Shown one piece after another: positions 2,094 to 61,409 of a stretch of 64,000 nucleotides of DNA. The notes under the pieces were generated by a model, which was not told the origin of the DNA, did not search any database, and saw only the letters and a list, made by a program, of their open reading frames with translations. The translations under genes and the position numbers were made by a program. Numbering within the stretch: the stretch's first letter is position 1; every line of letters starts with the position of its first letter. This DNA comes from Kordiimonadales bacterium IMCC3096 (GTDB lineage: Bacteria; Pseudomonadota; Alphaproteobacteria; Minwuiales; Minwuiaceae), in assembly GCA_016865035.1 (NCBI GenBank), contig CP018227.1, forward strand, positions 1,334,001 through 1,398,000, written 5' to 3'.

Positions 2094-2143
2094 CGGTTTT
2101 CTCTCTGTACATGCATGCAGAGGTGCCGTCAGGCACCGTCGGT

Positions 2144-2569: not shown

Positions 2570-2630
2570 TAGGTGATCTGGTCCGGGGCAAGGAGGGTGC
2601 AGGAATGGTCAGGCTGCACAGTCAAGTACC

Positions 2631-2650
2631 TGCAACGCAATCGCAATCAG
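2631..2650 (-). promoter_or_regulatory. Candidate iron-responsive (Fur-like) operator upstream of the uptake operon
   Basis: Upstream of the uptake operon, the minus strand carries a TGATTGCGATTGCGTTGCA stretch with three near-direct G-C-A-A-Y-C/G-A-T-T-G-C repeats. A TTGACT (2620-2625) lies just downstream and could be a -35 element, but no convincing -10 follows. Position and repeat structure fit an alphaproteobacterial Fur-type site. The match is loose and this is inference. Confidence 0.2.
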
Positions 2651-2717
2651 CGCCGTGCGACGATCAGAACCAGAACGCGTGGTATCAGGGTCGTGCATGT
2701 GCGGGGCCACGCCGCCC

Positions 2718-6285: not shown

Positions 6286-6302
6286 CAGCCTACCTGATCC
6301 GA

Positions 6303-8171: not shown

Positions 8172-10177
8172 TACTGTGTCACCTCTGCTGTGATGGAGAG
8201 AATACTTGCTGGCTCGGTCGATTTTCCGGTCACGCAGACAGTTGCCCCGACATCGCCGCGACCGCCGTTCCACCCGAGCAGGCGAACAGTCGCCAGTCTG
8301 GCAGCCACCTGGTCGGCGCTGCCGAAGGAAGCGGAACCGAATGTTCGTGGCTCGACATCCCGGCCATTGACCGCGAACCGGCCTGCGCGACCCGTGCGGA
8401 TCGTGGCGCGCACCAGGCGATGCCTGTTGCCGATGAAGGTGCCGTCCGTCAGTTCCGCCTCCAGCGGCATAGTCTCCACCGTCCAGCCGAACGGAAACCC
8501 GACTTCGAGACTGTCGACCGCTTCCGGGGTCGTGACGGCGCCATCGACCACGGTCGCGGCACCAAGATCCACGCCTTCGCTGAACAGGTGCACCTCGCTA
8601 CCGTCCAGTACTTCCAGGCCATTCCATTCCGTCGCCGGCACGACGCCAACCGGCGTAGCGACAACCGAGGAATCCAGACAGGACCCAGGCTCCAGACATT
8701 CGACGAACCAGCGCGTGCTTCCCGACAGTTGCCGGGACACGACAGCATAGACCCGGGCGCCGACGGCACAGATGGCCTTGACGAGACCGCCACCCCCCAG
8801 ACGAAGGCGGGTCCATCCGGCGATGTTCTGAGCGCGACGGGTGTTCAGAACAGCAATCGTACCGTCCGCGTTGGCGAGCATCAGGTGATTGGCACCGTCC
8901 AGCTCCGTACCCTGTCGCGCTGTCATATCGACCGGCGAATCGATCAGGCCACCGGCCAGCAACCCCAGATCCTGCGGCACCAGCACCTGCCGGGCATCGT
9001 CGAACACCAGCTCATTGCAGGTCGCGCGCACCGAGTCGCTGGAGGAACGGATGAACACGACCACGCCATCCAGCTCCACCGGGCGTATCGGCGCTGCGGG
9101 CAGCTCGCTCTGCCGCCTGAAGAAGAAGTTGGCTGGTGTGACCGGCGTCTCGGTACAGGCATAGACGCCGCCAGATGTCATGGCGAGAAAGTCGTTGGAG
9201 ACGAAGAGCTGCTCCACAGCGGCGATCTGGTCATTGTCCAGCGTCAGCTCGACGGCTTCGTCATCCAGAACATCCGCTGTCGTTCCGAAGTCGAAGAAAG
9301 ATCCGGCCCGGGACCCCCAGATGGTCTGCGGGCGGGACCTGTTCTGTCCGAAGTAGAGTCGGCCCTGGAACAGGTTGACTGACCGAGGCCAGCCGCGCAG
9401 GTCCGACCACGCATCCTCCTCGACCGTCCAGAGGCCCGGCTCTGCAGCCGTCGTTTCCTCCGGGGTCTGCACGACCGTACCTTCGACGACCGTAGCGCTG
9501 GTCCTTGCCGTCACCCGGACCAGACCGCCATGGATCCGGACCCAGAACGTCGGTGCCCCTTCCGACAGGTCGACGGACGCGAAGTCGATGTCATCCGTCG
9601 ATGTCACTGTCGCCGTGTCCCCGGAAATGGAGATGGATGCCGTCCCGAGCGTCAGTCCGCGGAAGTTGAAGGTCGGCGTGTTCGTCAGCGGAAGTGCGCC
9701 CAGCACCCAGTCCTCACCCTCACCGTCATGCTGGCGCAGCAACCGTCGGGGCGGGTAATCCGGATGCACCAGGATCATGGTGTCGAGACTCTGCGTCCAT
9801 GAGACATCAGCCAGTTCATCCGAGGTGAAGAACCTGTCCGCGTCATCCGGGACCTCGGGATCGGGGATCAAGGACTGGTTCAGGACACCATCCTCGAAGA
9901 CGTCGATGCGCCGGTGCGAGAAGGCGATCAGATAGGACTTGCCGAGTGCGAAGGTGAAACTCGCCAGACGGATGGTCTCTTCGCCCTCGGGTGGTTCGAT
10001 TTCGGCGACATGACGAAACCCGCCTCGCGTGGTCACACCGCCTTGGGCCATGCCCAGCACATTGGTCAGATCCCGGGCCCCGGCGAAATAGGCCCGGACG
10101 TCGGTACGTGCCTCGACGGCGGGATCCAGCATGCCACTGGTGAAGCTGAACTGCTGCAGGGCTGTACGTCTGGGCAT
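8171..10177 (-). CDS. T7-like tail tubular protein B / tail nozzle protein
   Basis: A 668-residue phage structural protein. It opens Q-F-S-F-T-S-G-M-L-D-P and continues R-T-D-V-R-A-Y-F-A-G-A-R-D-L-T-N, the usual start of podoviral nozzle proteins (T7 gp12 type). Beta-propeller-like repeats follow, with a central R-L-Y-F-G-Q-N-R-S-R-P-Q-T-I-W-G-S segment conserved in the family. It forms the distal part of a short tail. It lies 4 bp after the tail tubular A gene and before the small core-type gene, which is T7 gene order. The frame is intact, with no stop or shift over 2 kb, so the gene is not an obvious decay product. Confidence 0.8.
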   Translation of the reverse strand: MPRRTALQQFSFTSGMLDPAVEARTDVRAYFAGARDLTNVLGMAQGGVTTRGGFRHVAEIEPPEGEETIRLASFTFALGKSYLIAFSHRRIDVFEDGVLNQSLIPDPEVPDDADRFFTSDELADVSWTQSLDTMILVHPDYPPRRLLRQHDGEGEDWVLGALPLTNTPTFNFRGLTLGTASISISGDTATVTSTDDIDFASVDLSEGAPTFWVRIHGGLVRVTARTSATVVEGTVVQTPEETTAAEPGLWTVEEDAWSDLRGWPRSVNLFQGRLYFGQNRSRPQTIWGSRAGSFFDFGTTADVLDDEAVELTLDNDQIAAVEQLFVSNDFLAMTSGGVYACTETPVTPANFFFRRQSELPAAPIRPVELDGVVVFIRSSSDSVRATCNELVFDDARQVLVPQDLGLLAGGLIDSPVDMTARQGTELDGANHLMLANADGTIAVLNTRRAQNIAGWTRLRLGGGGLVKAICAVGARVYAVVSRQLSGSTRWFVECLEPGSCLDSSVVATPVGVVPATEWNGLEVLDGSEVHLFSEGVDLGAATVVDGAVTTPEAVDSLEVGFPFGWTVETMPLEAELTDGTFIGNRHRLVRATIRTGRAGRFAVNGRDVEPRTFGSASFGSADQVAARLATVRLLGWNGGRGDVGATVCVTGKSTEPASILSITAEVTQ

Positions 10178-10181
10178 CGGT

Positions 10182-10757
10182 TCATCCTCTCACGTCGACA
10201 AGCGGGAAACGTTCGATCGTCTGCGGTGTCTGCTGCTGACCGTCGATGGTGCGGGCGCGCGCAAACTCCCGTTCCGCTGCATTCGCCAGCATCTCGGTGC
10301 GGCTGGTGTTCTCGGTCAGCGGCAGACAGAGATCGGCCGCCAGCCGACAGATCAGCGCCTGATCGAAGAAGGCCGGAAAGGCGCTCTCGTCAGGGCGAAA
10401 GATGTAGGTGAGCATCAGGGTCTCGGCGTTGGCATGCAGCCGCCGTTCCTGAATGCGATAGGAAATGCCCCGACCGCGCCCGGACTGGCCATGACCGGCG
10501 GACAGGACCCGCAGGAAATCGCCGGGCAGGCTGAACGCATGATCAAAGTCGGCGCGCGGGGTCTCGTCCAGCCTGGCAAGCCGGACCTGAGCGGTGGCAA
10601 AGGACCAGGGATGGCCCGAAAGCAGGGAATCACGGCAGACCCCATACAGAAGCGAGGCAATCTCGGCCTCGGCGGTATTCTCCTCGAAACTGCTGATCGG
10701 CTGTGCACCGACCTTGAGCAGCGCCCGTGCGCAAAGCTGCACGCTGTTGAGGGCCAT
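10182..10757 (-). CDS. T7-like tail tubular protein A (gatekeeper)
   Basis: A 191-residue protein matching T7 gp11-type tail tubular A, the adaptor ring between portal and nozzle. The start A-L-N-S-V-Q-L-C-A-R-A-L-L-K-V-G-A-Q-P-I, the D-S-L-L-S-G-H-P-W-S-F-A segment and the F-D-H-A-F-S-L-P-G-D-F-L-R-V line are all characteristic. The ATG at 10757 has a good GGGAGG site upstream. It comes after the small head gene and immediately before the nozzle gene. Confidence 0.8.
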   Translation of the reverse strand: MALNSVQLCARALLKVGAQPISSFEENTAEAEIASLLYGVCRDSLLSGHPWSFATAQVRLARLDETPRADFDHAFSLPGDFLRVLSAGHGQSGRGRGISYRIQERRLHANAETLMLTYIFRPDESAFPAFFDQALICRLAADLCLPLTENTSRTEMLANAAEREFARARTIDGQQQTPQTIERFPLVDVRG

Positions 10758-13916: not shown

Positions 13917-14942
13917 CTAATGCTCGGCCTGAATTGCGTTCCCCTCCGCGTCCGCCAGCGCCAGAAGCCGCCGGACATCCGCTGTTGACCCCCGTGGCGC
14001 GTCCTTCAGGAATTCCGCTTCCTGCCTGAGATCACTCAGCCTTTGCAGCGCCATCCCGCGCGGCAGCATGGCCCGCACTTCGAACGCGCCATCCGGCCAG
14101 AGGCGATAGTCCAGATACCCCAGCATGGGCACCCCCGTGCCGACTCGCAGGCCGGAGCGGTAAGCTGTTGCCGGGGCCCAGACAAACCGCGTCTCTCCGA
14201 TCCTGACATCCAGATACTTGTGCAGGTGACCACTGGCGACAAACCGTACCCGGTGACGCAACAGCAGGGAGAGCAGGCGCGCGCGGGTGCCGGAGGGAGC
14301 GATGATCTCCAGTGGCGTCCCGGCGTCGATCCGGCGCGCAAAGAACATGGGCTTGTGCAGGAACACACCGACCGGTCGCCCACGGCCGGACTGCAATGCC
14401 TCCTCCAGCCAGCGCAACTGGACCGCCTCTTCCGGCAGGCCTGTGCCGAGAAGCTGCGAGTTCAGACCGACAAGCCGCCAGCCCGCCACATCTCGAATCC
14501 AGCGATCCGGCCCGAACCGTTCACGATAGCGGGCAAGCCGCTCCTCGGTGACCGGCTGCGCCATCATCGCGAAACCGGGCTCCTCCCCCACATCATGATT
14601 GCCGGGCAGGGACAGGACCGGCGCACGGAAAAGCCGGTTGGCCGCCACCGCAAGATCCAGATCCAACGGTCGCTCGACGCCATTGATGGTGAGGTCGCCG
14701 GTATGGACGACCAGGTCAGGCGACAGACTGTTGATGCTCGCGACTGCAGCCAGATAGTTGGCAACGAAGAAACCCTGCCTGTCGCTCAGATGCGTGTCCG
14801 AGATCTGGACCAGCCGCAGGGCGGACAGGGGTCGCTGACGATCACGCGGGCTATTCGAACAGATCGAAGATCTCCGCCAGTGCGGTTGTCTGGCTGCCCT
14901 TGGTGGAGCTCGGAACCAGGATCGGTGTCTTGACCCCCGCAT
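13917..14942 (-). CDS. Calcineurin-like metallophosphoesterase (CpdA/Icc type)
   Basis: Cytoplasmic dinuclear-metal phosphodiesterase. The motifs are in order: L-V-Q-I-S-D-T-H-L-S (D-x-H), V-H-T-G-D-L-T (GD), L-P-G-N-H-D-V (GNHD), F-L-H-K-P-M and S-G-H-L-H-K-Y. This class includes cAMP phosphodiesterases and DNA-repair-type esterases. The start is unclear. The ATG at 14942 overlaps the upstream LLM gene by 92 bp and adds about 40 residues unlike the family. No GTG or TTG lies between it and the first motif, so initiation at a CTG near 14829 is possible. It follows the LLM gene directly on the same strand, so the two are probably co-transcribed. Confidence 0.8.
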   Translation of the reverse strand: MRGSRHRSWFRAPPRAARQPHWRRSSICSNSPRDRQRPLSALRLVQISDTHLSDRQGFFVANYLAAVASINSLSPDLVVHTGDLTINGVERPLDLDLAVAANRLFRAPVLSLPGNHDVGEEPGFAMMAQPVTEERLARYRERFGPDRWIRDVAGWRLVGLNSQLLGTGLPEEAVQLRWLEEALQSGRGRPVGVFLHKPMFFARRIDAGTPLEIIAPSGTRARLLSLLLRHRVRFVASGHLHKYLDVRIGETRFVWAPATAYRSGLRVGTGVPMLGYLDYRLWPDGAFEVRAMLPRGMALQRLSDLRQEAEFLKDAPRGSTADVRRLLALADAEGNAIQAEH

Positions 14943-48804: not shown

Positions 48805-49671
48805 ATGACCAAGCGACCTGAACTGATCGTCGATCCGGCCTTTGTCGAGGCCGGCCTTGATGCGGGCACGATCCGGGTGATCGACTGCACCGTCACCTTC
48901 GAGACGAAGCCGGTTGGAGCCTCCACGATCCACAGCGGGCGGGAGGGCTGGCTGGCGGGGCACATTCCGGGCGCAGCCTTCCTGCACATGGTAGACGACC
49001 TCTCCGACCCGGAGGGGGCCTACCCCTTCACCATCGCGCCGCAGGCGCAGATCGACCGGGTGCTGTCGGAGATCGGGATCAGCCCTGACGACACGGTGGT
49101 GCTCTACGGTTCCGGCACGGCGGTGGCGGTGACCCGCGCCTGGTGGGTGCTGACCGTCTCCGGCCTCCGCGATGTGCGGATCATGGATGGCGGCTGGCAG
49201 CGCTGGGTCGCGGAAGGGCGGGCCGTCGCCACGGGGGAGGAACAGTTCACCCCCTCCACGTTCCGGGGCACGCGCACCCAGGCTGCCATCGCCGACCGGG
49301 AAACGATACGGCAGGCCATTGCCGACGGTGACACCCAGATCGTCAATGCGCTGTCGCTGGATCAGTTTCGGGGGACGGGCGGCACCCACTATGGCCGCCC
49401 CGGTCGGATCCCGAACAGCCTCAGCGTTCCGGCCACCGATCTGCTGCACCCGCTGACAGGCGATTTCGCGACGCCGGAACAGATGGCGCAACAGCTCGCA
49501 GCGGTCGATCCCTCGAAGCCGGTGATCACCTATTGCGGTGGCGGCATCGCGGCGGCGGCAACGCTGTTTGCCCTGCATGTCGCGGGGCACGACAATCTGC
49601 AGCTCTATGACAATTCGCTGCTGGAGTGGTCGGCACTCCCGGACCTGCCCATGGAAAGCGACAGAACCTGA
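48805..49671 (+). CDS. Rhodanese-type sulfurtransferase (3-mercaptopyruvate/thiosulfate sulfurtransferase)
   Basis: A 288-residue tandem rhodanese. The N-terminal inactive domain ends near residue 145 with the D-G-G-W-Q-R-W-V-A-E-G motif. The C-terminal domain holds catalytic C244 in T-Y-C-G-G-G-I-A-A-A. The C-G-G-G-I loop lies between the C-G-S-G-V of 3-mercaptopyruvate enzymes and the C-R-x-G-x of thiosulfate enzymes. It is followed after 10 bp by a SoxS-like thiol protein, pointing to a role in sulfane-sulfur handling. No signal peptide. Confidence 0.88.
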   Translation: MTKRPELIVDPAFVEAGLDAGTIRVIDCTVTFETKPVGASTIHSGREGWLAGHIPGAAFLHMVDDLSDPEGAYPFTIAPQAQIDRVLSEIGISPDDTVVLYGSGTAVAVTRAWWVLTVSGLRDVRIMDGGWQRWVAEGRAVATGEEQFTPSTFRGTRTQAAIADRETIRQAIADGDTQIVNALSLDQFRGTGGTHYGRPGRIPNSLSVPATDLLHPLTGDFATPEQMAQQLAAVDPSKPVITYCGGGIAAAATLFALHVAGHDNLQLYDNSLLEWSALPDLPMESDRT

Positions 49672-49681
49672 GGGTGCAGCC

Positions 49682-50113
49682 GTGACCCCTTCCAACATCC
49701 CGGCTTCGGTACGCCGCGCGCTGCTGATCGCCCTGCTCTGGCTGTTGCTTCCCCTGGCGGCGCAGGCTGACGGGGCCCGGACCGAACTGGTGATGTTCGA
49801 ACTGGGTACCTGCATCTATTGCGCTGTCTGGAACGATGCCGTCGGGCGCGGCTATGCCGAGACGACCCTGGGCCAGCGTGCGCCGTTGCGCCGGGTGGAC
49901 CTGCGCCACCGGCGGCCCGACGACCTGCGGCATGTCACCGGGGTGCGCATGACACCGACCTTCGTGCTGCTGCACGGCGAGCAGGAGGTCGGGCGCATCC
50001 TCGGCTATGTCGACGGCCCGAATTTCTGGCGGCAGTTGCAGGCCCTGATGTGGCAGGTGCCGGGGCGCCTGGAGGACACATCCCTCAACGTGCCCGCCCG
50101 CGCCACGGAATGA
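49682..50113 (+). CDS. Periplasmic SoxS/thioredoxin-like protein with C-I-Y-C site (second SoxS paralogue)
   Basis: A 143-residue protein starting with GTG at 49682, placed by a GAGGGT site. A signal peptide covers residues 10-29 (L-L-I-A-L-L-W-L-L-L-P-L-A-A-Q-A). The mature part opens T-E-L-V-M-F-E-L-G-T-C-I-Y-C-A-V-W and includes R-V-D-L-R-H, T-P-T-F-V-L-L-H and E-V-G-R-I-L-G-Y. The same framework occurs in SoxS at 60.3 kb, where the site is C-E-W-C. SoxS keeps SoxYZ reduced; this paralogue next to a sulfurtransferase may service another sulfur carrier. Its end overlaps the opposite-strand gene by 29 bp. Confidence 0.82.
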   Translation: MTPSNIPASVRRALLIALLWLLLPLAAQADGARTELVMFELGTCIYCAVWNDAVGRGYAETTLGQRAPLRRVDLRHRRPDDLRHVTGVRMTPTFVLLHGEQEVGRILGYVDGPNFWRQLQALMWQVPGRLEDTSLNVPARATE

Positions 50114-50678: not shown

Positions 50679-50932
50679 CGCCCGGCGCCCGTCCCCGCAC
50701 GCTGCCCCGGACCGGACACATGGATCTGCCGGTCAGCGGCGGCATTCATGGCCTTCAGGGGCGTACGCCGATGGTTCATGGTGCAAGCCTGTTCGGGTTG
50801 TGAAACGGGCGGCGATTGTCACACCGGTTGGCTGTCAATGTCGACAGCGCCAGCGAATACCGTCATAAGTCGCACCAGAATGACAGGCGCGAACAGCGCT
50901 CTTCTGCACGGAATTGCCGAGGACCTCCACGA

Positions 50933-51202
50933 ATGACTGCACCGACCTATCGCCGGCTTGAAGGATTTGTCTCGACCGACATGGACGGCGAAACCGTGCT
51001 GATGAGTATCGAGCATGGGTCCTATTTCGGCATCGGCGGAACAGGCTCGCTGATCTGGGAACGGCTGGAGCAACCGCAGACCGAGTATGCGCTCGTCGAG
51101 GCCGTTCGCGTCGCCTATGACGTGAGCGAAGAGGATTGTCGCCGCGATGTCGCCGCCTTCCTGGCGACACTGATCGAGAACGGACTGGCGGAAGCGAAGT
51201 AG
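50933..51202 (+). CDS. Lasso peptide B1 protein (PqqD-like RiPP recognition element)
   Basis: An 89-residue RRE protein that binds the precursor leader and hands it to the B2 protease. The winged-helix fold is seen as Y-R-R-L-E-G-F-V-S-T-D-M-D-G-E-T-V-L-M, then S-Y-F-G-I-G-G-T-G-S-L-I-W-E-R-L. A helical C-terminus follows (V-A-Y-D-V-S-E-E-D-C-R-R-D-V-A-A-F). These are conserved B1 features. The start at 50933 has a weak GAGGA site. It is first in the B1-B2-exporter operon; B2 starts 4 bp after its stop. Recognition would be through the Y-x-x-P-x-L leader motif of the precursor at 53.6-53.7 kb. Confidence 0.88.
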   Translation: MTAPTYRRLEGFVSTDMDGETVLMSIEHGSYFGIGGTGSLIWERLEQPQTEYALVEAVRVAYDVSEEDCRRDVAAFLATLIENGLAEAK

Positions 51203-51206
51203 GCCC

Positions 51207-51695
51207 ATGTCGAGGTTGCTGGCGCGCAAATTCCGTTCGATGCGTGACCAGTCGGGCTTCACCCTGTTCTGGCTCTTTCCGACCTGGCTGCTGCTGGGAC
51301 TCTATCGGGCACTGATCCTGACCCTGCCGCTGAAACGCATGGCGCCTTTCTATGGGGAGGATCTGGGGGTCGAGAACTGGATACCCCTGGCGAACCCGGA
51401 CCAGATCAGACGCGCCCGCGATATTCGCAGCACCATCAGCATTGCCGCGAAATACTGCCCCTGGACCGCCAACTGCTATCCGAAAGCGCTTGCGGCACGT
51501 ACTCTCCTGCGCCTCTATCGCATACCGCATGCGATCTACTTCGGCCTCGCGCCGTCGGAGGGACCGCAGGGCATGGACGCGCATGCCTGGGTGATGGCCG
51601 GGCCGGTTCCGGTGAGTGGTGGCACCGGCTTCGGGCGTTATCGTGTGGTGCGCATGTTCGTCGGGCGGATGCCGGCAGGGGACATCCACCAATGA
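51207..51695 (+). CDS. Lasso peptide B2 leader protease (transglutaminase-like)
   Basis: A 162-residue cysteine protease that removes the leader. The Cys-His-Asp triad shows as W-T-A-N-C-Y-P-K-A-L-A-A-R-T-L-L (C91) and M-D-A-H-A-W-V-M-A-G. A hydrophobic helix near residues 20-38 (L-F-W-L-F-P-T-W-L-L-L-G-L-Y) suggests membrane contact, as in other B2 proteins. Split B1/B2 rather than a fused B is the arrangement in kinase-containing lasso loci. It overlaps the exporter gene by 4 bp. Confidence 0.9.
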   Translation: MSRLLARKFRSMRDQSGFTLFWLFPTWLLLGLYRALILTLPLKRMAPFYGEDLGVENWIPLANPDQIRRARDIRSTISIAAKYCPWTANCYPKALAARTLLRLYRIPHAIYFGLAPSEGPQGMDAHAWVMAGPVPVSGGTGFGRYRVVRMFVGRMPAGDIHQ

Positions 51696-53392
51696 TTCAC
51701 CTGCAACGGCTGCTGCGATTGCTGCAGCGCGCACCACGGGGACAGGTCATCGTGCTGGCGCTTCTGCTGCTGGCGGGAAGTCTCACGGAAGGCATTGGTT
51801 TCATACTGCTGGTGCCGCTGCTTTCGTCCCTGACCGGGGGAGAGGCAGAAAATGCCATCGTCCGGCACCTGCTGGATCTGCTCGCGGCATTCGGGATTCC
51901 CCCGACACCTGTCGGTTTCCTCTCTGTCTTCGTCGCGCTCATCGCCGTGCGCAGTGCGCTTCAGTTCGCCAAGGACCGCGCAGGGCTGATGTTGCAGCAC
52001 CAGGTCGTCGATCACCTGCGGGAGGTCTGTATCAGCCGCTTGCTCCGGGCCGACTGGCGCTGGATCACCGAACAGACACGCACCGACCACATGACCCTGG
52101 TGCTGGGGGAAGTGAATCGGGTCGGAAACGGACTCAGCGCCGGCCTGACCTTGCTCACCACCCTTGCCACGGCCCTTGCCTACTTCGCCGCCGCCTTCGT
52201 CTTCTCCCCCGCGATGGCCGGACTGGTGCTGTTCGCGGCGGCCATCGGCTATGTCGCGATGCGACGCATCCGGGCGAGCGCGTTGCGGCTTGGATCGCAG
52301 CAGGTCGATGCGAACCGCGATCTGATGGCCAATGTCCAGCAGTCCTTCGGCGGCCTGAAGCTGACCAAGATCCTGGGCAGCGAGTCACGACACATCGATC
52401 TTCTGGTCCGGACGGTGGCCCGCGTCCGGCGCAACCAGCTCCGGTTCGGGATCGAGACCAGCCTGATGCGGAACCTGCAGCAGGTGATAGGGGCAGCCCT
52501 GCTTGCGCTCTATGTTCTTGTCGGCCTGACCTGGCTGGAACTGCCGCTGGCCGAGTTGCTGGCCCTGACATTCCTGTTTGCCCGCCTGATGCCCCTGCTG
52601 CTCTCCGCGCAGCAGTTCCTGCACCGCTGGCTGAACGCCGAGCCGGCGCTGGAGGCCATCGACCGTTTCGTTGCCGAGAGTGGCGAGCATGCGGAAGCGG
52701 TTGCCGATGACGCCCATGGAGAATGGCCTGTCGTCAACGCTATCGACCTGAAGGATGTGTCCCTGACCTACGCCCGGCGGGACCGTCCGGCCCTGCATGA
52801 AATCAACCTCAGACTGGCCGCGCGAACCACCACCGCGATCACCGGCCCTTCCGGCGCGGGGAAGAGTACTCTCGCGGACATACTGATGGGCCTGATCGTC
52901 CCCGACGAAGGCACCATGACGATCGATGATGTACCTCTGGACGGCACCAGTCGGGTGAATTGGCGGCGAAATGTTGCCTACGTGCCACAGGATACGTTCC
53001 TGTTTCACGACACGATCCGGGCAAACCTGCTGTTCGGAAATCCCGCGGCAACCGAATCGGAACTGCTGGCGGCACTTGCCCAGGCCGCGGCGGATTTCGT
53101 CATGAAATTGCATGACGGCCTGGACACCGTGGTCGGCGACAATGGTGTCAGGCTCTCAGGCGGTGAACGCCAGCGCATCGCGCTCGCACGCGCCTTGCTG
53201 CGGTGCCCCAGCCTGCTGATCCTGGACGAGGCAACGAGTGCGCTGGATGCGGAGAACGAGGCTGCGATCAGTGAAGCGCTGGAAACGCTGCACGGGCAGA
53301 TGACAGTTCTGCTGATCGGGCACCGCACAGAAACCTTGCGGAATGCAGATCAGGTCATCGAATTGAGAGAAGGAAGAATCGCCAGCCCGTAG
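51692..53392 (+). CDS. Lasso peptide ABC exporter (fused membrane-ATPase half transporter)
   Basis: A 566-residue type IV ABC exporter. Six membrane helices occupy about residues 15-325. The ATPase domain has Walker A G-P-S-G-A-G-K-S-T-L, signature V-R-L-S-G-G-E-R-Q-R-I-A, Walker B L-L-I-L-D-E-A-T-S-A-L-D and H-loop L-I-G-H-R-T. It functions as a homodimer and exports the mature peptide, giving immunity (role D of lasso loci). No peptidase C39 domain is present, consistent with leader removal by B2. Last gene of the B1-B2-D operon. Confidence 0.88.
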   Translation: MIHLQRLLRLLQRAPRGQVIVLALLLLAGSLTEGIGFILLVPLLSSLTGGEAENAIVRHLLDLLAAFGIPPTPVGFLSVFVALIAVRSALQFAKDRAGLMLQHQVVDHLREVCISRLLRADWRWITEQTRTDHMTLVLGEVNRVGNGLSAGLTLLTTLATALAYFAAAFVFSPAMAGLVLFAAAIGYVAMRRIRASALRLGSQQVDANRDLMANVQQSFGGLKLTKILGSESRHIDLLVRTVARVRRNQLRFGIETSLMRNLQQVIGAALLALYVLVGLTWLELPLAELLALTFLFARLMPLLLSAQQFLHRWLNAEPALEAIDRFVAESGEHAEAVADDAHGEWPVVNAIDLKDVSLTYARRDRPALHEINLRLAARTTTAITGPSGAGKSTLADILMGLIVPDEGTMTIDDVPLDGTSRVNWRRNVAYVPQDTFLFHDTIRANLLFGNPAATESELLAALAQAAADFVMKLHDGLDTVVGDNGVRLSGGERQRIALARALLRCPSLLILDEATSALDAENEAAISEALETLHGQMTVLLIGHRTETLRNADQVIELREGRIASP

Positions 53393-53495
53393 CGCGCGGC
53401 AGTCAGGCCGGGCCGCACGGAAACCAGACGCTTCAGGCTCTGGCAAAGCTTCTCAGGAACGGGACTTCACCGGCACCGAAAACGAGGGAAAGGCC

Positions 53496-53511
53496 ATTGC
53501 AGCACTGCAAT
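53496..53511. terminator. Bidirectional hairpin between exporter and precursor genes
   Basis: ATTGCA (53496-53501) and TGCAAT (53506-53511) pair around a four-base loop. Flanking GGC/GCC extend the stem with one mismatch. It lies between two convergent genes, the exporter (ends 53392) and the precursor (ends 53557), so it could end both transcripts. No T-run follows, so efficiency is uncertain. Confidence 0.4.
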
Positions 53512-53556
53512 AGCCTGACCCGATCAATGCGTCAGAACCGAACAGGAAGCCGGGCG

Positions 53557-53709
53557 TCAGCTCGACGTGGTGGCACCGTCGTTGGAGGGGGCGATATCGT
53601 TCGCGGTGTCACCCGTGTCCAGAACCCGCAGTACTGGAGCCTCGTAGACCATCTTCTTCATGTGGTCTTCGCCAACGACGCCATCGGTTGAGATTTCATG
53701 CTTTGTCAT
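53557..53709 (-). CDS. Lasso peptide precursor (A peptide)
   Basis: A 50-residue peptide on the opposite strand to its neighbours, identified by its leader: Y22-E-A-P-V-L27, the Y-x-x-P-x-L motif bound by B1, then R-V-L-D-T-G-D-T. With T35 as the conserved penultimate leader residue, the core is N-D-I-A-P-S-N-D-G-A-T-T-S-S (14 residues). Asp44 at core position 8 would be the macrolactam acceptor; starting at A36 instead gives an alanine N-terminus and Asp at position 9. The core is very polar, without aromatic residues, and ends in Ser, the phospho-acceptor position in paeninodin-type peptides. Translation may instead begin at codon 17 (53661), giving 34 residues. The only known-motif candidate in the locus. 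Confidence 0.75.
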   Translation of the reverse strand: MTKHEISTDGVVGEDHMKKMVYEAPVLRVLDTGDTANDIAPSNDGATTSS

Positions 53710-53805
53710 CAGGTGTTTCCACTACGGTAAATCTGGATTCGAACTCTTGCAACGGGCCACGGAACACCAGCCAGTCGGAAAAACTGAAGCGTTCCTGTTC
53801 CTATG

Positions 53806-53834
53806 CTTATCACCGGCAGCCCCGAATGTGTCAA
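53806..53834 (-). promoter_or_regulatory. Sigma70-like promoter of the lasso precursor
   Basis: On the minus strand, TTGACA (53829-53834) is followed after 17 bp by GATAAG (53806-53811). The -35 is a perfect match and the spacing ideal. The predicted transcript starts near 53799, giving a leader of about 90 bases before the precursor ATG at 53709. The precursor would thus be expressed separately from, and probably more strongly than, the enzyme operons. Confidence 0.55.
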
Positions 53835-54167
53835 GCCCCCTCTGCAGCAACCCTTCGCTCGGATTCGAGCCTCTTCTGATCGGCTTCCCCACCCAGGAGC
53901 GGCTTTGCCGGAAGACCGGGAACATCCACTTACCCTGTATCGAATGGTGCCGCTGGCAGACCGCATACCATCATTCAGCGCTTCACGGCGCCGGGTCCTG
54001 TATGGTCTTGCCTTCTTCAACCGCTGGCCGGGACAGCGCTCTCCCGACTTCCCCCAGGCATTCGGGAGTGCTTGACCACGGTGCCGGGCCTTGGTTGAAG
54101 GTAGTCACGACTCCGGACTTCAATTCAGGCATGTTGCCGAGTCCCAACGCGAGATCAGGAAACCGGC
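53835..54167. other. Intergenic stretch upstream of the nucleotidyltransferase
   Basis: With the precursor leader, this completes a 458-bp stretch (53710-54167) without a convincing gene. Short open frames on both strands have no ribosome binding site and no leader motif. A TTGACC near 54072 could belong to a plus-strand promoter for the nucleotidyltransferase. Nothing else was seen. Confidence 0.4.
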
Positions 54168-55412
54168 ATGACCGAACGGGTAGCATCACTGGAGGAACTG
54201 GCCCTCCGACTGATGTGTCGACCGGAATCGATCCCGAAGCATGTCATTGAGGCGATGTCGGGCGAGGATCTGTCACAGGTTCTCGAATGGGCGATGGAAC
54301 ATCGGTTCGCCCCTTGCCTGCACTACAACATGGGCAAGGCCGGACTGCTGCCGCGCCTGCCGGCGGAGATGAGGGATCGCCTCGCCATTGCCTATCAGCG
54401 GGCAACCCTTCGCGGTCTTTCAATGCAACGGGACATGATCCGGACAAGCCGGATCCTGGAGCAGGCAGGTATCGCGCACCTGTTCATGAAGGGAGCCTAT
54501 GTGGCGCAGTTCGCCTATCCGGAACTCGGCCTGCGTCCGCTGCGCGACATCGATGTTCTGGTTCCGCATGCACAGGCGATTGCAGGGTTCGAGGCCCTGC
54601 AGGCGAACGGTCTGGGGCGAAAGCCGGGGCACCCCGGCGATCCTGCCGCGCACCTGGAGGACAGGAAGCATCTTCCGCCCCTGAGAATTCCGGGAGGCGC
54701 GACTGTGGAGGTGCACACCAGAACCATCTCGCCAAGCCAGTTGCTGAGGACCGACTCTGCGCACGGCAACCACGAGACAATGGCCTCGCGCCAGATACGA
54801 CGCGATGTGGCCGGTTGCTCGATCCCGTTCGAAGGAACGGAGGACCTGTTGCTGCATCTCGCGGTCCACGCCGCCATCGATCACCAGTTCAACAACGGGC
54901 CTCTGATCGTGAGCGATATCGGCTGGCTGCTCGAAACCCACGCGATCAGCTGGCCCCGCCTCTGGCAGCTCGCGAGTGCCCAGGGAGCAACGCGTGGCCT
55001 GGCACTGGTACTGCGGCTGGTTGAGCGGGAGTGGCCAGATGCCAGCATCGAGTGGGACGCTGAGACCGCAAGCATCCTGGCACCTCAGGACCCGATCATC
55101 ACCGTTGCTGCGCGCAGCCTGCTGCGGAGCTTCGAAGCGCGCGGCGACGTTGCCCTGCAGGCGGAGCTGGCCGGACAATTGTCCACTGCCGCGCGGCTCC
55201 GCATCCTTCTCCGACGGGCCTTTCCGCGCCGTGCCGACCTCGCGACCGAGGTGCCGGTATCAGCAGCCTCGCCCTGGATAATCTTCTGGTATCCGCTGAA
55301 ATGGTGGCGGCTGCGGCTGCGGCTCGCCGATTTCATGCGCAGCCGTCGCGACCGGCGTGCACGACAGGACGCCGCCCGACTGGGCACACTCACCAGCTGG
55401 CTTCGAGGCTGA
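54168..55412 (+). CDS. Lasso-locus nucleotidyltransferase family protein (NTP_transf_5 type)
   Basis: A 414-residue protein of the family often found beside lasso kinases. The nucleotidyltransferase core reads L-F-M-K-G-A-Y-V-A-Q-F-A-Y, then G-L-R-P-L-R-D-I-D-V-L-V-P, with the D-x-D metal pair around residues 125-127. A helical remainder follows, including H-L-A-V-H-A-A-I-D-H-Q-F. A basic, membrane-like segment near residues 360-380 (W-I-I-F-W-Y-P-L-K-W-W-R-L-R) suggests membrane association. The reaction is unknown; transfer of a nucleotide to the peptide or to a phospho-peptide has been proposed only by analogy. Confidence 0.82.
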   Translation: MTERVASLEELALRLMCRPESIPKHVIEAMSGEDLSQVLEWAMEHRFAPCLHYNMGKAGLLPRLPAEMRDRLAIAYQRATLRGLSMQRDMIRTSRILEQAGIAHLFMKGAYVAQFAYPELGLRPLRDIDVLVPHAQAIAGFEALQANGLGRKPGHPGDPAAHLEDRKHLPPLRIPGGATVEVHTRTISPSQLLRTDSAHGNHETMASRQIRRDVAGCSIPFEGTEDLLLHLAVHAAIDHQFNNGPLIVSDIGWLLETHAISWPRLWQLASAQGATRGLALVLRLVEREWPDASIEWDAETASILAPQDPIITVAARSLLRSFEARGDVALQAELAGQLSTAARLRILLRRAFPRRADLATEVPVSAASPWIIFWYPLKWWRLRLRLADFMRSRRDRRARQDAARLGTLTSWLRG

Positions 55413-55597
55413 AGCGACGACCGGTCGATCGAATGTCCCGGGGGGACTGTACCGGCAGGGCCTGACAGGCTAGGACAGCTACCGGGCGCAGGCGACAACG
55501 GCAGTCAGGCATCTGACACGACCGGCCCACAGGGAACCAGAGCCGACGTCCGGCACCGAGCCGTGACGGTGCAGCACAGGAATGCAGTGGATGAGCC

Positions 55598-56500
55598 ATG
55601 CATCATGACTACCGGGCCTACGGGCTGACCATTTCTTCGGAATTCCCGCTGCCGGAACTCCAGTCCGCAGCCGTCGGTGACGGCAATGCGGATGTCCATG
55701 TCTCCCATGCCCCGATACCGGACAGCGAGTTGAACAGCGGCAGGCAGATCTCGCCTTTCGTCTGGGTGAACGACGACTGTTTCTGGCTGATGGTTCCCGG
55801 CATCGCACGCTACTCGGTCCGGCTGGGGCGGGAGATCCGGATCGCGCCCGAGCCCGGTATCGACGAGGCCTCGGTGCGCGTCTTCCTGCTGGGCTCGGCG
55901 CTCGGCGCCCTGCTCTTCCAGCGCGGATATCTGCTGCTGCATGGCAATGCGATAGAGGTAGATGGCAAGTGCCTTGTCTGTGTCGGTCCTTCCGGTTCGG
56001 GCAAATCGACCCTTGCCACGGCGCTGATGCAACGTGGCCACCGGATCCTGGCGGATGACGTCGTACCGATCGATGCCAATTGTGCAGCCGTGCCGGGATT
56101 CCCCCGCCTGAAGATCTGGCAGGACACGACGCAGAAACTTGGCATTGATGTCACGGGAAAGGTCCGTGTGCGACCGGACCTGAACAAGTTCAGTCTTCCG
56201 ATCACAGAGAGGTTCCAGGACACCCCTCTGCCAGTGCGCTGGATCTACATGCTCGGGAGTTCGAACAGAAGCGGGATCGAGATCGAGCCGATCACCGGAA
56301 TGAACCGCTTCCGGCCCCTGCGGGACAACACGTACCGGCGCCGGTTCATGGAAGGCATGGCCCTGCGGCCGGAACATCTGCAACGCTGTGGAGAACTGGC
56401 CGGCAAGGTGCACATGGCAAAGATCATCCGGCCCAAGGCCGGTTTCGATATCGAGAGCCTGATGGACCATCTGCTTGCAGACGCCCGGGAACACGGCTGA
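55598..56500 (+). CDS. Lasso-locus HPr-kinase-like peptide kinase (PadeK/ThcoK type)
   Basis: A 300-residue kinase. The P-loop is V-G-P-S-G-S-G-K-S-T (residues 129-138) and the metal-binding acidic pair is L-A-D-D-V-V-P (153-154), both typical of HPr kinase-like proteins. The N-terminal half has Y-G-L-T-I-S-S-E-F-P-L-P-E-L, the usual opening of lasso kinases. In the paeninodin system a homologous kinase phosphorylates the C-terminal serine of the precursor, and this precursor ends in Ser-Ser. It lies 1 bp before the sulfotransferase, so both tailoring enzymes are co-expressed. Confidence 0.88.
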   Translation: MHHDYRAYGLTISSEFPLPELQSAAVGDGNADVHVSHAPIPDSELNSGRQISPFVWVNDDCFWLMVPGIARYSVRLGREIRIAPEPGIDEASVRVFLLGSALGALLFQRGYLLLHGNAIEVDGKCLVCVGPSGSGKSTLATALMQRGHRILADDVVPIDANCAAVPGFPRLKIWQDTTQKLGIDVTGKVRVRPDLNKFSLPITERFQDTPLPVRWIYMLGSSNRSGIEIEPITGMNRFRPLRDNTYRRRFMEGMALRPEHLQRCGELAGKVHMAKIIRPKAGFDIESLMDHLLADAREHG

Positions 56501-56501
56501 G

Positions 56502-57356
56502 ATGAGCGGGATTTTCTGGCTGGCATCCTATCCCAAGTCAGGAAACACCTGGCTGCGGACGTTCCTGATGAACTACAGGAGGGACGAAGGACAGCCGTGC
56601 GACATCAACGAACTGAATACCGGCATGATCGCTTCGAGCCGCATATGGGTCGATGATGTCTGCGGCTTCGATACGGCGGATCTGAGGCAGGATGAGATCG
56701 AGAACCTTCGGCCGGAGGTCTATCGCTGGACCAGCACCGAGGCCGAGACAGGCTTCCACAAGATTCATGATGCCTATCGCATCACGGTGTCCGGTCGCCC
56801 GCTTGTCGATGATGTGGCAACCCGCGGGGCGATCTACGTTATCCGCAACCCACTGGATGTCGCCCCCTCCTACGCCAATCACCGTGGTTGCAGCATCGAC
56901 GATGCGATCAGCCATATGGCCAACCCTGACTATGCGCTGGCCCGGTCCGACCGGGCGCTGTCGGATCAGTTGCTGCAGTTCATGGGGACCTGGTCGCACC
57001 ATGTGACCAGCTGGGTCGATGCACCGGACCTGAATCTCCTGACCCTGCGTTACGAGGACATGCATGCAGACCCCGTCGGGACCTTTGGCAAGGTCGTGAG
57101 GTTTCTGGATATGGAGCAGGATGAGGAGCGGCTTGGGCGGGCCATCGCCTTCAGCCAGTTCGAGGTTGTGGCGGCCCAGGAGGCCCAGTCAGGGTTTCGC
57201 GAACGTCCCGCGCGTGCCGAGCGGTTCTTCCGCAAGGGACAGGCCGGTGACTGGCGCACGAGCCTGAACGAAGGCCAGGTGTCACGCATCATCAGGGATC
57301 ATGGCACGGTGATGCAGCGGTTCGGCTATCTCGATCAAACGGGAAAGCCGGTCTGA
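56502..57356 (+). CDS. PAPS-dependent sulfotransferase of the lasso locus
   Basis: A 284-residue cytosolic-type sulfotransferase. The 5'-phosphosulfate loop is S-Y-P-K-S-G-N-T-W-L-R (residues 9-19). The 3'-phosphate motif is R-N-P-L-D-V-A-P-S-Y-A-N-H (115-127). The C-terminal R-K-G-Q-A-G-D-W-R-T-S-L matches the family's R-K-G-x-x-G-D-W region. Acceptors would be hydroxyls; in this locus the Ser/Thr-rich core is the obvious candidate, but a glycan or lipid could also serve. The start directly follows the kinase stop, implying joint action. Confidence 0.9.
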   Translation: MSGIFWLASYPKSGNTWLRTFLMNYRRDEGQPCDINELNTGMIASSRIWVDDVCGFDTADLRQDEIENLRPEVYRWTSTEAETGFHKIHDAYRITVSGRPLVDDVATRGAIYVIRNPLDVAPSYANHRGCSIDDAISHMANPDYALARSDRALSDQLLQFMGTWSHHVTSWVDAPDLNLLTLRYEDMHADPVGTFGKVVRFLDMEQDEERLGRAIAFSQFEVVAAQEAQSGFRERPARAERFFRKGQAGDWRTSLNEGQVSRIIRDHGTVMQRFGYLDQTGKPV

Positions 57357-57368
57357 ACACATTGCGGA

Positions 57369-59267
57369 TCAGATATCGTTGCGTCCGTTGATGAACCGGA
57401 CAAAGCGGGCGGTGGTCAGGCCCCGGCTGAGGGCAAGGTTGAGAGTCCTGTCGTCAGCTTCACTGATGTCGCGATCATCGGCCGGCATGTTTCGCACGGC
57501 TTCCTGGAGCCGGTCGAAATCCAGGTACCTGGAGACCAGTGGATCCGTGGAAAGCCACTCCAGCTCCGAGAGGATGGCGTCCCGCCGAGGACGCACCCGG
57601 CTTGCCCAGTCAGCGGCCTGACGGCCCTTCCGCCGTTCGTCGAGCACCATCGCGGGCACCTTGCCCCGCAGCATCCGACGGGCGAGCCAGCGGCTGCGAC
57701 CCAGGTTCAGGTACTGCTCCGTGGGGATGGCGAAACAGTACTCCAGCAGCGCGCGGTAGCGTGTCGGATCACGACTGGGAATACCGTGCAGCCGATCAAG
57801 CGCATAGGACATGTCCCCGGTTTCGTTTGCCGCATTTCCCGAAGACCTCGTGCGGAAATCAAGTACCGAAGTCACGGGAGAAAAATCCGGATCGAACCCA
57901 AGCTGCCGCGCACGGCTTTCGACAGCCATGTCCCTCGCGAACTCTGCATTGAGCGGTGACCAGGTATCGAACGGCGATTCCTCCAGCTTGCCGAACCGGC
58001 GCCGAATTCGCCGCTGCAGGCCTGCCGGCAGGAATGGCAGGACCGATTCCCGTGCAACGCGCAGCGGCAGCTTGCCGACCGGGCCGCCGTGCCAGAGTTC
58101 CCTGGCCAGACGCACCAGCCGCGCCTGCCGGAGCAGGTCCTGCAGCATGCCGCGGCCATGATAGCTGAAGGTGAGGTTGCCCATGTTGCCGGTCAGGTGA
58201 ACATCGGCACCGGCTTCCCTGGCCGCCGCCCGCACGTCGTGCACCCAGTGCAGGTTCGCGCCGTTGCGCGGCGCGGTCATTGCCGTTTCGAACAGCTCGC
58301 GCTGAAAATGGGAAAGGTCGCGGTCCCCGGAGGTGATCCAGGCCGGACGAAGTTCGGGGTACATCGCTGCCAGCGCCTCGACATGCGGGCGTTCGTTCAC
58401 CATGGCGTCCGGGTTCGGCGGAACCCAACCTGGCTCTGGCACCGATGTGAATGACAACAGGGGCTGCCCCGGTCGCCCGAGCATCGTGTATGCCGCGACA
58501 GCCTGAGAATCCAGTCCCCCCGAGAGACTGACAGCCGGGCGCTCGAAACCCTCCAGCGCTGCTTCCGTCGCCTCCCGAAAGAGGGCATCGGCGGCTTCGA
58601 CATAGTCACTGTCGCGTTTCAGGCGAACCGGCGGAATGTCCTCGATCCGAAAGAAGCAGGTCTCGGTGACGCCGTCCGGCGTGAACCACGCCCGGGTGCC
58701 GCGGGGCAACCTTGTCACCCCCCTGAACCAGGCCCGCCGTTCCTCCCTGTAGTTCAGATAGAGCGTGTCGGCGATCTTCTGCTCGTCCAGTTCCCGCGCG
58801 ATCTCGCCGGTACTGAAGATTGCCTGCACGGCGGTTGTCGCGATCAGCCGATCCCTGTCCCGCCTGAAATAGAGGGCGGGCGACTTGATCGGACTGCGGG
58901 CGATCCGTACACGCTTGCCATGCGCCTCGACCAGGATGGTCGCGTATTCGCCGGTCAGACGCTGATCCACATCCTCCCCCCAGCGGGCATAGCCGGCGGC
59001 ATAGATCGCGTCATCGCCGGGCGCCTCCACACCAAGTTCCGCGCGGCAACGGGCCCGGTTCTCGATGAAGCCGTAGAGCAGCACCACCGAACCATCGGGC
59101 GTCCTGGCCGGTTCCCGACCCGGCCCGGCGTAGCCGTCACAGACCAGTGCACCATTGTGCACCGTCGCACGCGGCAGAACCTCACCGACCCTGAAAGCGG
59201 GCGCGAACGCGGCGGCGCGGGATTGCACCGCATCCGGGTCGTGCCACAGCGCATAAAGGCCGATCAT
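57369..59267 (-). CDS. Lasso cyclase (asparagine-synthetase-like C protein)
   Basis: A 632-residue macrolactam synthetase that adenylates the core Asp/Glu side chain and closes the ring on the new N-terminus. The C-terminal synthetase domain has the PPi loop L-S-G-G-L-D-S-Q-A-V (SGGLDS at 249-254). The N-terminal glutaminase-like domain starts M-I-G-L-Y and lacks the catalytic Cys2, as expected for an enzyme using an amine of the peptide rather than ammonia from glutamine. The start at 59267 has a GGAGAC site. It is convergent with the sulfotransferase gene, 12 bp apart. Confidence 0.9.
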   Translation of the reverse strand: MIGLYALWHDPDAVQSRAAAFAPAFRVGEVLPRATVHNGALVCDGYAGPGREPARTPDGSVVLLYGFIENRARCRAELGVEAPGDDAIYAAGYARWGEDVDQRLTGEYATILVEAHGKRVRIARSPIKSPALYFRRDRDRLIATTAVQAIFSTGEIARELDEQKIADTLYLNYREERRAWFRGVTRLPRGTRAWFTPDGVTETCFFRIEDIPPVRLKRDSDYVEAADALFREATEAALEGFERPAVSLSGGLDSQAVAAYTMLGRPGQPLLSFTSVPEPGWVPPNPDAMVNERPHVEALAAMYPELRPAWITSGDRDLSHFQRELFETAMTAPRNGANLHWVHDVRAAAREAGADVHLTGNMGNLTFSYHGRGMLQDLLRQARLVRLARELWHGGPVGKLPLRVARESVLPFLPAGLQRRIRRRFGKLEESPFDTWSPLNAEFARDMAVESRARQLGFDPDFSPVTSVLDFRTRSSGNAANETGDMSYALDRLHGIPSRDPTRYRALLEYCFAIPTEQYLNLGRSRWLARRMLRGKVPAMVLDERRKGRQAADWASRVRPRRDAILSELEWLSTDPLVSRYLDFDRLQEAVRNMPADDRDISEADDRTLNLALSRGLTTARFVRFINGRNDI

Positions 59268-59415
59268 CAATGTCTCCGTCGCTACCTTTCGCCGGGACGG
59301 CAGCATCACGTCCCGCGGCCGACCGGGAACGCCAGAGACGCTCCCGGACGGCTCAGGCTCTTATGGCGCTTGCGGGTATGCTTCTCAAGCCCGGCGCACG
59401 CGCCAGGATCGCGGA

Positions 59416-60259: not shown

Positions 60260-60631
60260 TCAGCCTTGTGGCGGCAGTCTCTGCATCAACTGGTCCAGCA
60301 GTCCCCAGAAGAAATCCTCGCCCGGGTAGCCGCGAATGCGTCCGACCTCCTGCCCGTTGTGTATCAGCACGAAGGTAGGGGTGAATCGCGATCCTTCAAT
60401 ATGAGCCAAGTCATCGGGCATGGGATCGTGAATGTCCACGCGGCGGATCGGCGCGCGTTTGCCCTCTGCTGTCAGGGGGTAGATGGGCCCGATCTCACTG
60501 AACCAGGCCGCGCACCATTCGCAGTTCTGCTGCTCGAACATCACGAGCGCAGTCCGTGGTTCACCCGCGTGGGACAGGGGGGCGACCAGCAGACCGGCAA
60601 ACAACACAATTGACGCAAGCAGTGCTTTCAT
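60260..60631 (-). CDS. soxS: SoxS/SoxW periplasmic thioredoxin
   Basis: A 123-residue periplasmic thioredoxin-like protein with a signal peptide (residues 1-22, ending S-H-A). The redox site is E-Q-Q-N-C-E-W-C-A-A-W and the conserved T-P-T-F-V-L-I-H supplies the cis-proline. SoxS receives electrons from SoxV and reactivates SoxYZ. The start at 60631 gives a proper signal peptide; the longer frame does not. First gene of the soxS-soxR operon, divergent from soxV. Confidence 0.88.
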   Translation of the reverse strand: MKALLASIVLFAGLLVAPLSHAGEPRTALVMFEQQNCEWCAAWFSEIGPIYPLTAEGKRAPIRRVDIHDPMPDDLAHIEGSRFTPTFVLIHNGQEVGRIRGYPGEDFFWGLLDQLMQRLPPQG

Positions 60632-60674
60632 GCGCCATACATAGGATAACTGGAATATTTGGGCAAATGGTGTG

Positions 60675-61409
60675 ATGGAATTCGATATCACGATCAGCGG
60701 CGCGCTGCTGGCAGGGCTGCTTTCCTTCCTCTCACCCTGCGTTCTGCCGCTGGTACCACCATACCTCTGCTATCTTGCTGGAATAAGCTTCGAACAGCTC
60801 AGCAGCGGCACCGACACGGTCGACCGCCGCCAGATCATCGCCAAGGCAATCCTCTTCGTGCTCGGCTTTTCCACCGTGTTCGTCGCCCTGGGTGCGACAG
60901 CCAGCACCATCGGCAGCGCCGTATCCGAATATTTCGGCATTCTTGCGATCGTGGCTGGCGTCGTGCTGATCCTCATGGGGGCGCACTTCATGGGAATCTT
61001 CCGCATCGGCCTGTTGTTCCGGGAAGTCCGCTACCATGCCGGCGGCACCAGGGCAGGTTGGCTGGGCGCCTATTTCGTAGGCCTGGCGTTCGCCTTCGGG
61101 TGGACGCCCTGCGTCGGTCCGGTGCTGGCCGGAATCCTGTTCATGGCCGGGGCCGAGGACTCGATGTCACGCGGCGCGCTTCTGCTCGCCGCCTATGCGG
61201 CAGGTATCGGCATCCCCTTCCTGCTGGCGGCGATATTCTCCTCCGCGTTCCTCGGCTTCATGGCCCGGTTCCGAAAGAACCTCGGACTGGTGGAGAAGAT
61301 GATGGGCGGTCTGCTGATCGTCACCGGATTCCTGATCATGACCGGATCGATGAACGAGCTTGGTTTCTGGATGCAGGAAATGTTTCCCGCACTCGGGGGC
61401 GCAGGCTGA
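60675..61409 (+). CDS. soxV: SoxV/CcdA membrane thiol-disulfide transporter
   Basis: A 244-residue inner-membrane protein with six helices. The redox cysteines lie in F-L-S-P-C-V-L-P-L-V (near residue 22) and G-W-T-P-C-V-G-P-V-L, the CcdA signatures. It carries reducing power from cytoplasmic thioredoxin to SoxS. The ATG at 60675 follows a GTG one codon earlier. First gene of the divergent sox operon, 43 bp from soxS. Confidence 0.92.
   Translation: MEFDITISGALLAGLLSFLSPCVLPLVPPYLCYLAGISFEQLSSGTDTVDRRQIIAKAILFVLGFSTVFVALGATASTIGSAVSEYFGILAIVAGVVLILMGAHFMGIFRIGLLFREVRYHAGGTRAGWLGAYFVGLAFAFGWTPCVGPVLAGILFMAGAEDSMSRGALLLAAYAAGIGIPFLLAAIFSSAFLGFMARFRKNLGLVEKMMGGLLIVTGFLIMTGSMNELGFWMQEMFPALGGAG

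Follow-up and report, generated by a model that had tools for sequence, protein, structure and literature searches.

As set out in excerpts of two reviews (PMC8498205, PMC9266682), HprK-type kinases of lasso-peptide clusters act on the linear precursor and place a phosphate on its C-terminal Ser, this Ser is extremely conserved in kinase-type clusters, and in pseudomycoidin a nucleotidyltransferase goes on to attach hexoses to the phosphate. The same excerpts describe a proteobacterial lasso cluster with an HprK-type kinase in Sphingobium yanoikuyae (SyanA/SyanK), as at the locus analysed here, and a conserved C-terminal Ser in SyanA like that of our precursor, a likeness drawn from the description. 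Paeninodin (Bacillota, PadeA/PadeK) and pseudomycoidin also combine lasso genes with a kinase; our precursor differs from both in lying on the strand opposite to its exporter and nucleotidyltransferase genes, in a predicted Asn at core position 1 and in a very short tail, and its leader is YxxP where those of paeninodin-like peptides are nearly all WxxP (excerpt of PMC13381572). The Bsf cluster of Bradymonas sediminis, as described in part of PMC10368454, shares the kinase, a YxxPxL leader and an Asp8 acceptor with our predicted precursor, but has Ile at -2, Gly1 and a phosphorylated Ser3 where ours has Thr at -2, Asn1 and Ile3. The LPP family, finally, brings together an RRE, HprK, a nucleotidyltransferase, an ABC exporter and a YxxP leader, as does our locus (excerpt of PMC13381572); in that description its clusters hold a signal-peptidase-like protease and no cyclase, whereas ours contains a cyclase-like gene and, among nine neighbour proteins scanned, no protease of that kind.

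The window (the whole 64-kb stretch of DNA analysed) contains a cluster of such genes with a 50-codon minus-strand ORF in its midst (Table 1), and on sequence grounds this ORF is very probably the precursor gene of a kinase-type, that is phosphorylated, lasso-peptide cluster. An earlier note, made from the letters alone, had proposed the frame as a lasso precursor; it is present at exactly 53557..53709 with the ATG and the residues given there, and translates as MTKHEISTDGVVGEDHMKKMVYEAPVLRVLDTGDTANDIAPSNDGATTSS, with the leader motif YEAPVL, Tyr at residue 22, Thr at residue 35, Asp-44 and a C-terminal Ser. The 13 residues that the note counted from Tyr to Thr were also found, but they do not amount to the expected leader spacing: with a cut after Thr-Ala the Tyr falls at -15, not at the usual -17 (part of PMC10368454). 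A Trp at -15 is reported for the paeninodin-type PbaA (part of PMC13381572); a spacing of -15 is thus known, yet it is not the textbook value.

Table 1. Features of the putative lasso-peptide cluster in the window
Feature	Position	Strand	Basis or remark
B1 (RRE, PqqD-like)	50933..51202	+	89 aa from ATG at 50933; ORF readable from 50816
B2, leader peptidase, transglutaminase-like	51207..51695	+	NF033537 above cut-off; Cys90 and His126 conserved
D, ABC exporter	51692..53392	+	family-model matches
A, putative precursor gene	53557..53709	-	ATG, 50 aa and stop; leader/core boundary predicted from Thr at -2
RBS-like stretch	53710..53724	-	upstream of ATG; AG[CT]GGAA in 4/4 species
Promoter-like motif CTTGACA-N17-GATAAG	53806..53835	-	alignment of upstream regions
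N, nucleotidyltransferase (PF14907)	54168..55412	+	divergent from precursor
K, HprK-type kinase	55598..56500	+	family-model matches, alignment
Sulfotransferase	56475..57356	+	PF00685
C, asparagine-synthetase-like, putative macrolactam cyclase	57369..59309	-	NF033535

ORFs of this kind are rare by chance. The window has 658 ORFs with a length of 30 aa or more, and the precursor alone among them matched the pattern Y..P.L followed after six to nine residues by T. In sixty simulated 64-kb sequences (first-order random), the mean was 0.08 matching ORFs of 30-90 aa (maximum 1), and a random 775-bp gap held an ORF with the motif and the Thr in 0.3% of 3000 trials. A looser scan for [YW]..P.[LIVMF], run on ORFs of 30-150 aa within 49.9-60.7 kb, also picked up two minus-strand frames (52839-53075 and 58955-59254), which were rejected for lacking a Thr at the precursor's spacing. 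The statement that the cluster holds no other candidate precursor was borne out, both by this motif scan, which yielded none better, and by profile A4 (see below), a joint profile whose rows come in part from Tistrella, which found a single match in the window genome at E<=1 and no second copy. The 50-aa peptide had no match to Pfam or NCBIfam models at E<=0.1, and none among plasmid records at E<=10. Two mechanical plus-strand ORFs (53497-53691 and 53660-54250) overlap it in antisense; the second, of 196 aa, spans the precursor start and the region upstream and could mislead a gene caller.

The enzymes around the ORF were assigned with differing firmness: B1, B2 and the cyclase are co-located with the precursor, and B1 and the cyclase score below their narrow curated cut-offs. 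B1 matches PqqD and lasso chaperone models (NF033536 at 78.2 bits, just under the cut-off of 80), and its best solved-structure matches were 9x90, which is named a lasso PqqD-family chaperone, TbiB1, 9x8z, named just a PqqD family protein, and TfuB1; 9x90 and TbiB1 are lasso RREs. A search of B2 against PDB sequences gave no relative at E<=1. The kinase carries the His-Lys-Asp-Asp motif reported for lasso kinases in part of PMC9266682, with His115, Lys136, Asp153 and Asp154 invariant in the three Minwuia sequences aligned. The cyclase matched the lasso cyclase model NF033535 with E 1.6e-39, and its assignment rests on context because its 136 bits lie far under the cut-off of 525 and three other proteins of the window genome outscore it. 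Thioredoxin-like proteins, recognised by eye, stand on either side of the cluster (49625-50110 on the plus and 60263-60691 on the minus strand) and are 47% identical over 115 aa. Together with the C-terminal Ser, the kinase, nucleotidyltransferase and sulfotransferase genes support placing the precursor among the phosphorylated lasso clusters.

Conservation in relatives, which had been named as a check on the frame, was examined in seven Minwuia genomes including that of the window (a presumed genus placement), and homologous ORFs were found in three of the six others. The four genomes with a precursor homologue are also those that hold the nucleotidyltransferase and B2 (in one of them B2 is a contig-end fragment below the model cut-off), and the remaining three lack all three genes. 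A search of 96 genomes recovered the precursor in its own genome and in the three other Minwuia at E<=2.1e-4; five further genomes matched weakly (E 0.195-0.65), one of which (G041) proved to be of the Tistrella type described below. In each of the four Minwuia the precursor ORF occupies the gap from exporter to nucleotidyltransferase and runs antiparallel to the two genes, and this local arrangement is retained even in a species in which the exporter-precursor-nucleotidyltransferase block is inverted relative to kinase, sulfotransferase and cyclase. Two of the clusters (G005 and G001) are each split over two contigs; tracing of B1 succeeded for G001 and G004 and not for G005, whose contig stops within B2. 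Because related species retain the ORF at the same place, we read it as the substrate of the surrounding enzymes.

In an alignment of the four peptides 17 columns do not vary, including Y22, P25, L27, T35, A36, N37 and D44. The leader motif, T35-A36-N37, an Asp at predicted core position 8 or 9 and Ser as the last residue are common to all four. Third codon positions were the most variable in all six species pairs, and pairwise dN/dS ratios were 0.20-0.50, values that are rough because dS reached 0.8-2.0. Identity between pairs was 0.54-0.76 in the ORF and 0.31-0.44 in the downstream flank; upstream, the closest pair stood at 0.65 and the remaining five at 0.32-0.43, compared with 0.29-0.35 in shuffles (five per pair, of the upstream region alone), so that the flanks are not wholly random. 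With these observations, we consider it highly probable that the ORF is the real precursor of the window cluster.

Upstream of the ATG, the pattern CTTG[AC]CA-N17-nAnAAn occurs in all four species at a distance of 43-96 nt, a pattern fitted after viewing the upstream alignment; under a looser, general sigma-70-like rule, the chance of a site was 17-33% per upstream region. A standard sigma-70 scan of the window returned no promoters, and so did not report the motif at 53806..53835. As evidence of a real promoter, this candidate element is suggestive only. Downstream of the ORF, folding is only mildly stable (z -1.70), and the standard scan gave one terminator-like site, the same number as in shuffles.

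Compared with M. thermotolerans, the cluster is a mosaic. Protein identity is 90% for B1, 91% for B2 and 90-95% for the exporter, and 42% for the precursor, 53% for the nucleotidyltransferase and 64% for both kinase and sulfotransferase, as if precursor and modifying enzymes had changed together, since both diverge more than B1, B2 and the exporter. The cyclase is 82-98% identical per 50 residues over its first 300 residues and 50-70% beyond. At the DNA level, identity is 89% over 50748-53355 and drops afterwards, the low-identity stretch (about 53355-58400) reaching from the end of the exporter to the middle of the cyclase gene. One reading is that the genes for the substrate and its tailoring enzymes, with the latter half of the cyclase gene, would have been exchanged as one piece between relatives; differing rates of change may also account for the drop, since in another species the step in the cyclase is no more than weak.

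Gly or another small residue is customary at position 1 of a lasso core, without being a defining feature. If Thr stands at -2, residues 1-36 of the window peptide would be leader and N37-S50, NDIAPSNDGATTSS, the core, with Asp at position 8 and Ser last; we consider it likely that the core begins at this Asn with Asp-8 as acceptor. The predicted cores of the other three Minwuia are NQPVAGTDGVTSAS, NLTAANSDATTVS and NGGPGASPDGVTSS. With the presumed cut after A36, the invariant T35 takes the penultimate leader position in all four, the first core residue is Asn throughout, not Gly or another small residue, and Asp falls at core 8 in three species and at core 9 in one. The tails (GATTSS, GVTSAS, ATTVS and GVTSS) consist solely of G, A, V, T and S, with no bulky plug, and all four end in Ser.

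These features suggest a pathway whose order of steps we infer from the two reviews, as far as their excerpts go (PMC8498205, PMC9266682). B1 would bind the YEAPVL motif of the leader, and the HprK-type kinase would phosphorylate the C-terminal Ser50 on the linear peptide. B2 would then cleave after Thr35-Ala36, and the cyclase would link the amino group of Asn37 (core 1) to Asp44 (core 8), giving an 8-residue ring and a 6-residue tail. The nucleotidyltransferase and the sulfotransferase would decorate the phosphate or side chains, and the ABC protein would export the finished product. Ser50 is probably phosphorylated, judging from the sequence, but the site is not certain because BsfK phosphorylates Ser3 (part of PMC10368454) and the window core has Ile at position 3. 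The kind of cluster is already known; what is unusual is Asn1, the minimal Ser-ended core, the antisense placement and the occurrence of relatives in arrays.

Whether the predicted product is threaded, a true lasso, we judge to be an even call. A serious rival is that the precursor is real and its product an unthreaded branched macrolactam, the tail being too short and too small to be trapped in an 8-residue ring; we regard this as possible, though the lesser prospect. It gains from the absence of bulky residues in the Minwuia tails, from the role of disulfides and/or bulky plugs in stabilising lasso folds (excerpt of PMC8498205) and from the shortness of the cores, whose 13-14 aa are close to the minimum of the known range of 13-33 aa (excerpt of PMC13352647). 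Against it, the enzymes belong to lasso pathways, and the C-terminal Ser, if charged and perhaps glycosylated, could take the role of the stopper.

The boundary of the core can be drawn differently, with a start at Ala36 and a 9-residue ring closed on Asp44 (A1-D9). Ala36 is invariant in 14 of 14 aligned rows and Ala is the more usual first core residue, but the Thr would then fall at -1, contrary to the general Thr(-2) rule (as given in part of PMC10368454), M. thermotolerans would require a 10-residue ring, and at other kinase loci the candidates allow a reading in which Gly or Ala directly follows Thr-x; we consider this boundary unlikely and keep to a core that begins at Asn37. It is more improbable still, to the point of being a distant outsider, that the product is a linear phosphorylated LPP-type peptide made by RRE, HprK, nucleotidyltransferase and exporter with no ring: LPP clusters do hold an RRE, an HprK-like kinase, an NTP transferase, an MsbA-like exporter and a YxxP leader (part of PMC13381572), but the window cluster has B2 and the cyclase-like gene at 57369-59309, a Pfam scan of nine neighbour proteins matched no signal-peptidase family and thus no signal-peptidase-like protease, and LppA, as described, has a 45-aa core phosphorylated on Ser3, where the window core has Ile. 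A chance ORF or untranslated antisense sequence, to which the two overlapping plus-strand ORFs might point, is extremely improbable in the face of the codon-level conservation, synteny and co-occurrence in four species and the low rate of motif-bearing ORFs in random sequences.

The precursor, read as the substrate of a kinase-type lasso pathway, has relatives beyond Minwuia. A profile of the four Minwuia peptides detected related short ORFs in Tistrella, the best case being plasmid pTM1 of Tistrella mobilis KA081020-065, and a search of 385 genomes of the class with profile A4 (E<=0.05, up to 18 candidates scored in each) gave matches in at least 13. Three Tistrella genomes had at least 11, 9 and 12 of them, and one further genome at least 6. 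Like the window precursor, aligned examples from the Tistrella arrays have a [YW]..P.[LF] leader, T-A at -2/-1, Asp at core 8 and a C-terminal Ser; they differ in a WxxP leader, in multiple copies in a row and in their distance from the genome's single detected B2. One B2 was found in each of the three Tistrella genomes, in T. mobilis on pTM2 with the arrays on pTM1, and HprK-like and cyclase-like genes stand next to each other elsewhere in the genomes. Tandem or scattered W..P.[LF] genes lie in NC_017957.2 462000-480000 (L061, at 4963-6299, 10061-10291 and 14125-14274 of that stretch), further short precursor-like genes of this pattern lie at 1257-3292 of a second Tistrella locus (L027), and SGNH/MBOAT and CoA-transferase genes are among their neighbours. 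The claim that such a frame is too short for gene calling did not hold, in that the NCBI gene table lists five (129-165 bp) of seven similar ORFs in the pTM1 stretch (L061) and calls them hypothetical proteins; the other two are absent from it.

Collecting ORFs by the leader motif alone gave 54 distinct sequences, 40 of which pass profile A4. Taken with the first possible Thr, these 40 have an acid at core 8 in 29 and at core 9 in 6 cases (35/40), end in Ser in 36 and have cores of 13-15 residues in 35, counts that describe the group and are not an independent test, because the D and S columns are part of A4 and Tistrella paralogs make up many of the rows. Their first core residues are N (7), G (6), I (6), V (4), A (4), T (3), E (3), F (3), S (2), L (1) and P (1). 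Among the 26 passing ORFs outside the A4 rows, an acid occupies one of these two positions in 21 and Ser is the last residue in 22; for the 14 that fail the profile, both figures are 3.

Outside Minwuia, four of nine kinase loci have similar candidates (in Thiodictyon, Citromicrobium, Azospirillum and a betaproteobacterial MAG), and at one of the four there is another candidate, in which the acid is missing; the pattern gave no convincing candidate at the other five (L033, L034, L035, L039, L040), some of which are short contigs. A match in Azospirillum lipoferum was rejected, as the open frame around it is very long and no precursor is visible there, and weak matches in long frames (for example L006, L007, L023 and L025) were judged to be chance. 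A plasmid of Thalassobaculum (NZ_CP139716.1 44544-69425, L063) carries two PqqD-like genes, a kinase, an asparagine-synthetase-related gene and a sulfotransferase, as well as B2, an ABC protein and a nucleotidyltransferase; its candidate precursor has no acid at core 7-9. Another alphaproteobacterial genome (G102; loci L074, L085, L089, L093 and L097) gave six weak matches to the precursor profile, of which YRRPVLTELDVEETATGVQNGPTENISYIS is near the Citromicrobium candidate. Titles and abstract openings of the Minwuia literature, to which our search was limited, make no mention of lasso peptides, which is weak evidence of novelty.

The precursor fills a cluster that has enzymes but otherwise no substrate, and makes the exact masses of its products predictable: the calculated [M+H]+ is 1331.571 for the ring-closed core N37-S50, 1411.537 with one phosphate, 1491.504 with two and 1573.590 with a phosphate and a hexose, whereas a core starting at Ala36 would give 1402.608. 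If Asn1 and a modified Ser as the sole hold on the tail are true, the peptide would put to the test both the assumption of a small first residue and the need for bulky plugs, and the variant is unusual enough to merit specialist testing. On a speculative view, which we hold to be rather improbable, the Minwuia peptide would belong to an undescribed alphaproteobacterial group of minimal phospho-lasso peptides. The cores of this group would be mostly 13-15 residues long with nearly any residue at position 1, an Asp-8 ring and a plug-free tail, a (poly)phosphate or phospho-sugar on the C-terminal Ser would be the stopper that replaces a bulky side chain, and in Tistrella one B2 would serve many precursor genes spread over other replicons. 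The existence of such related ORFs beyond Minwuia suggests that machinery of the kinase type may serve many dispersed short precursors, which mining by cluster would miss.
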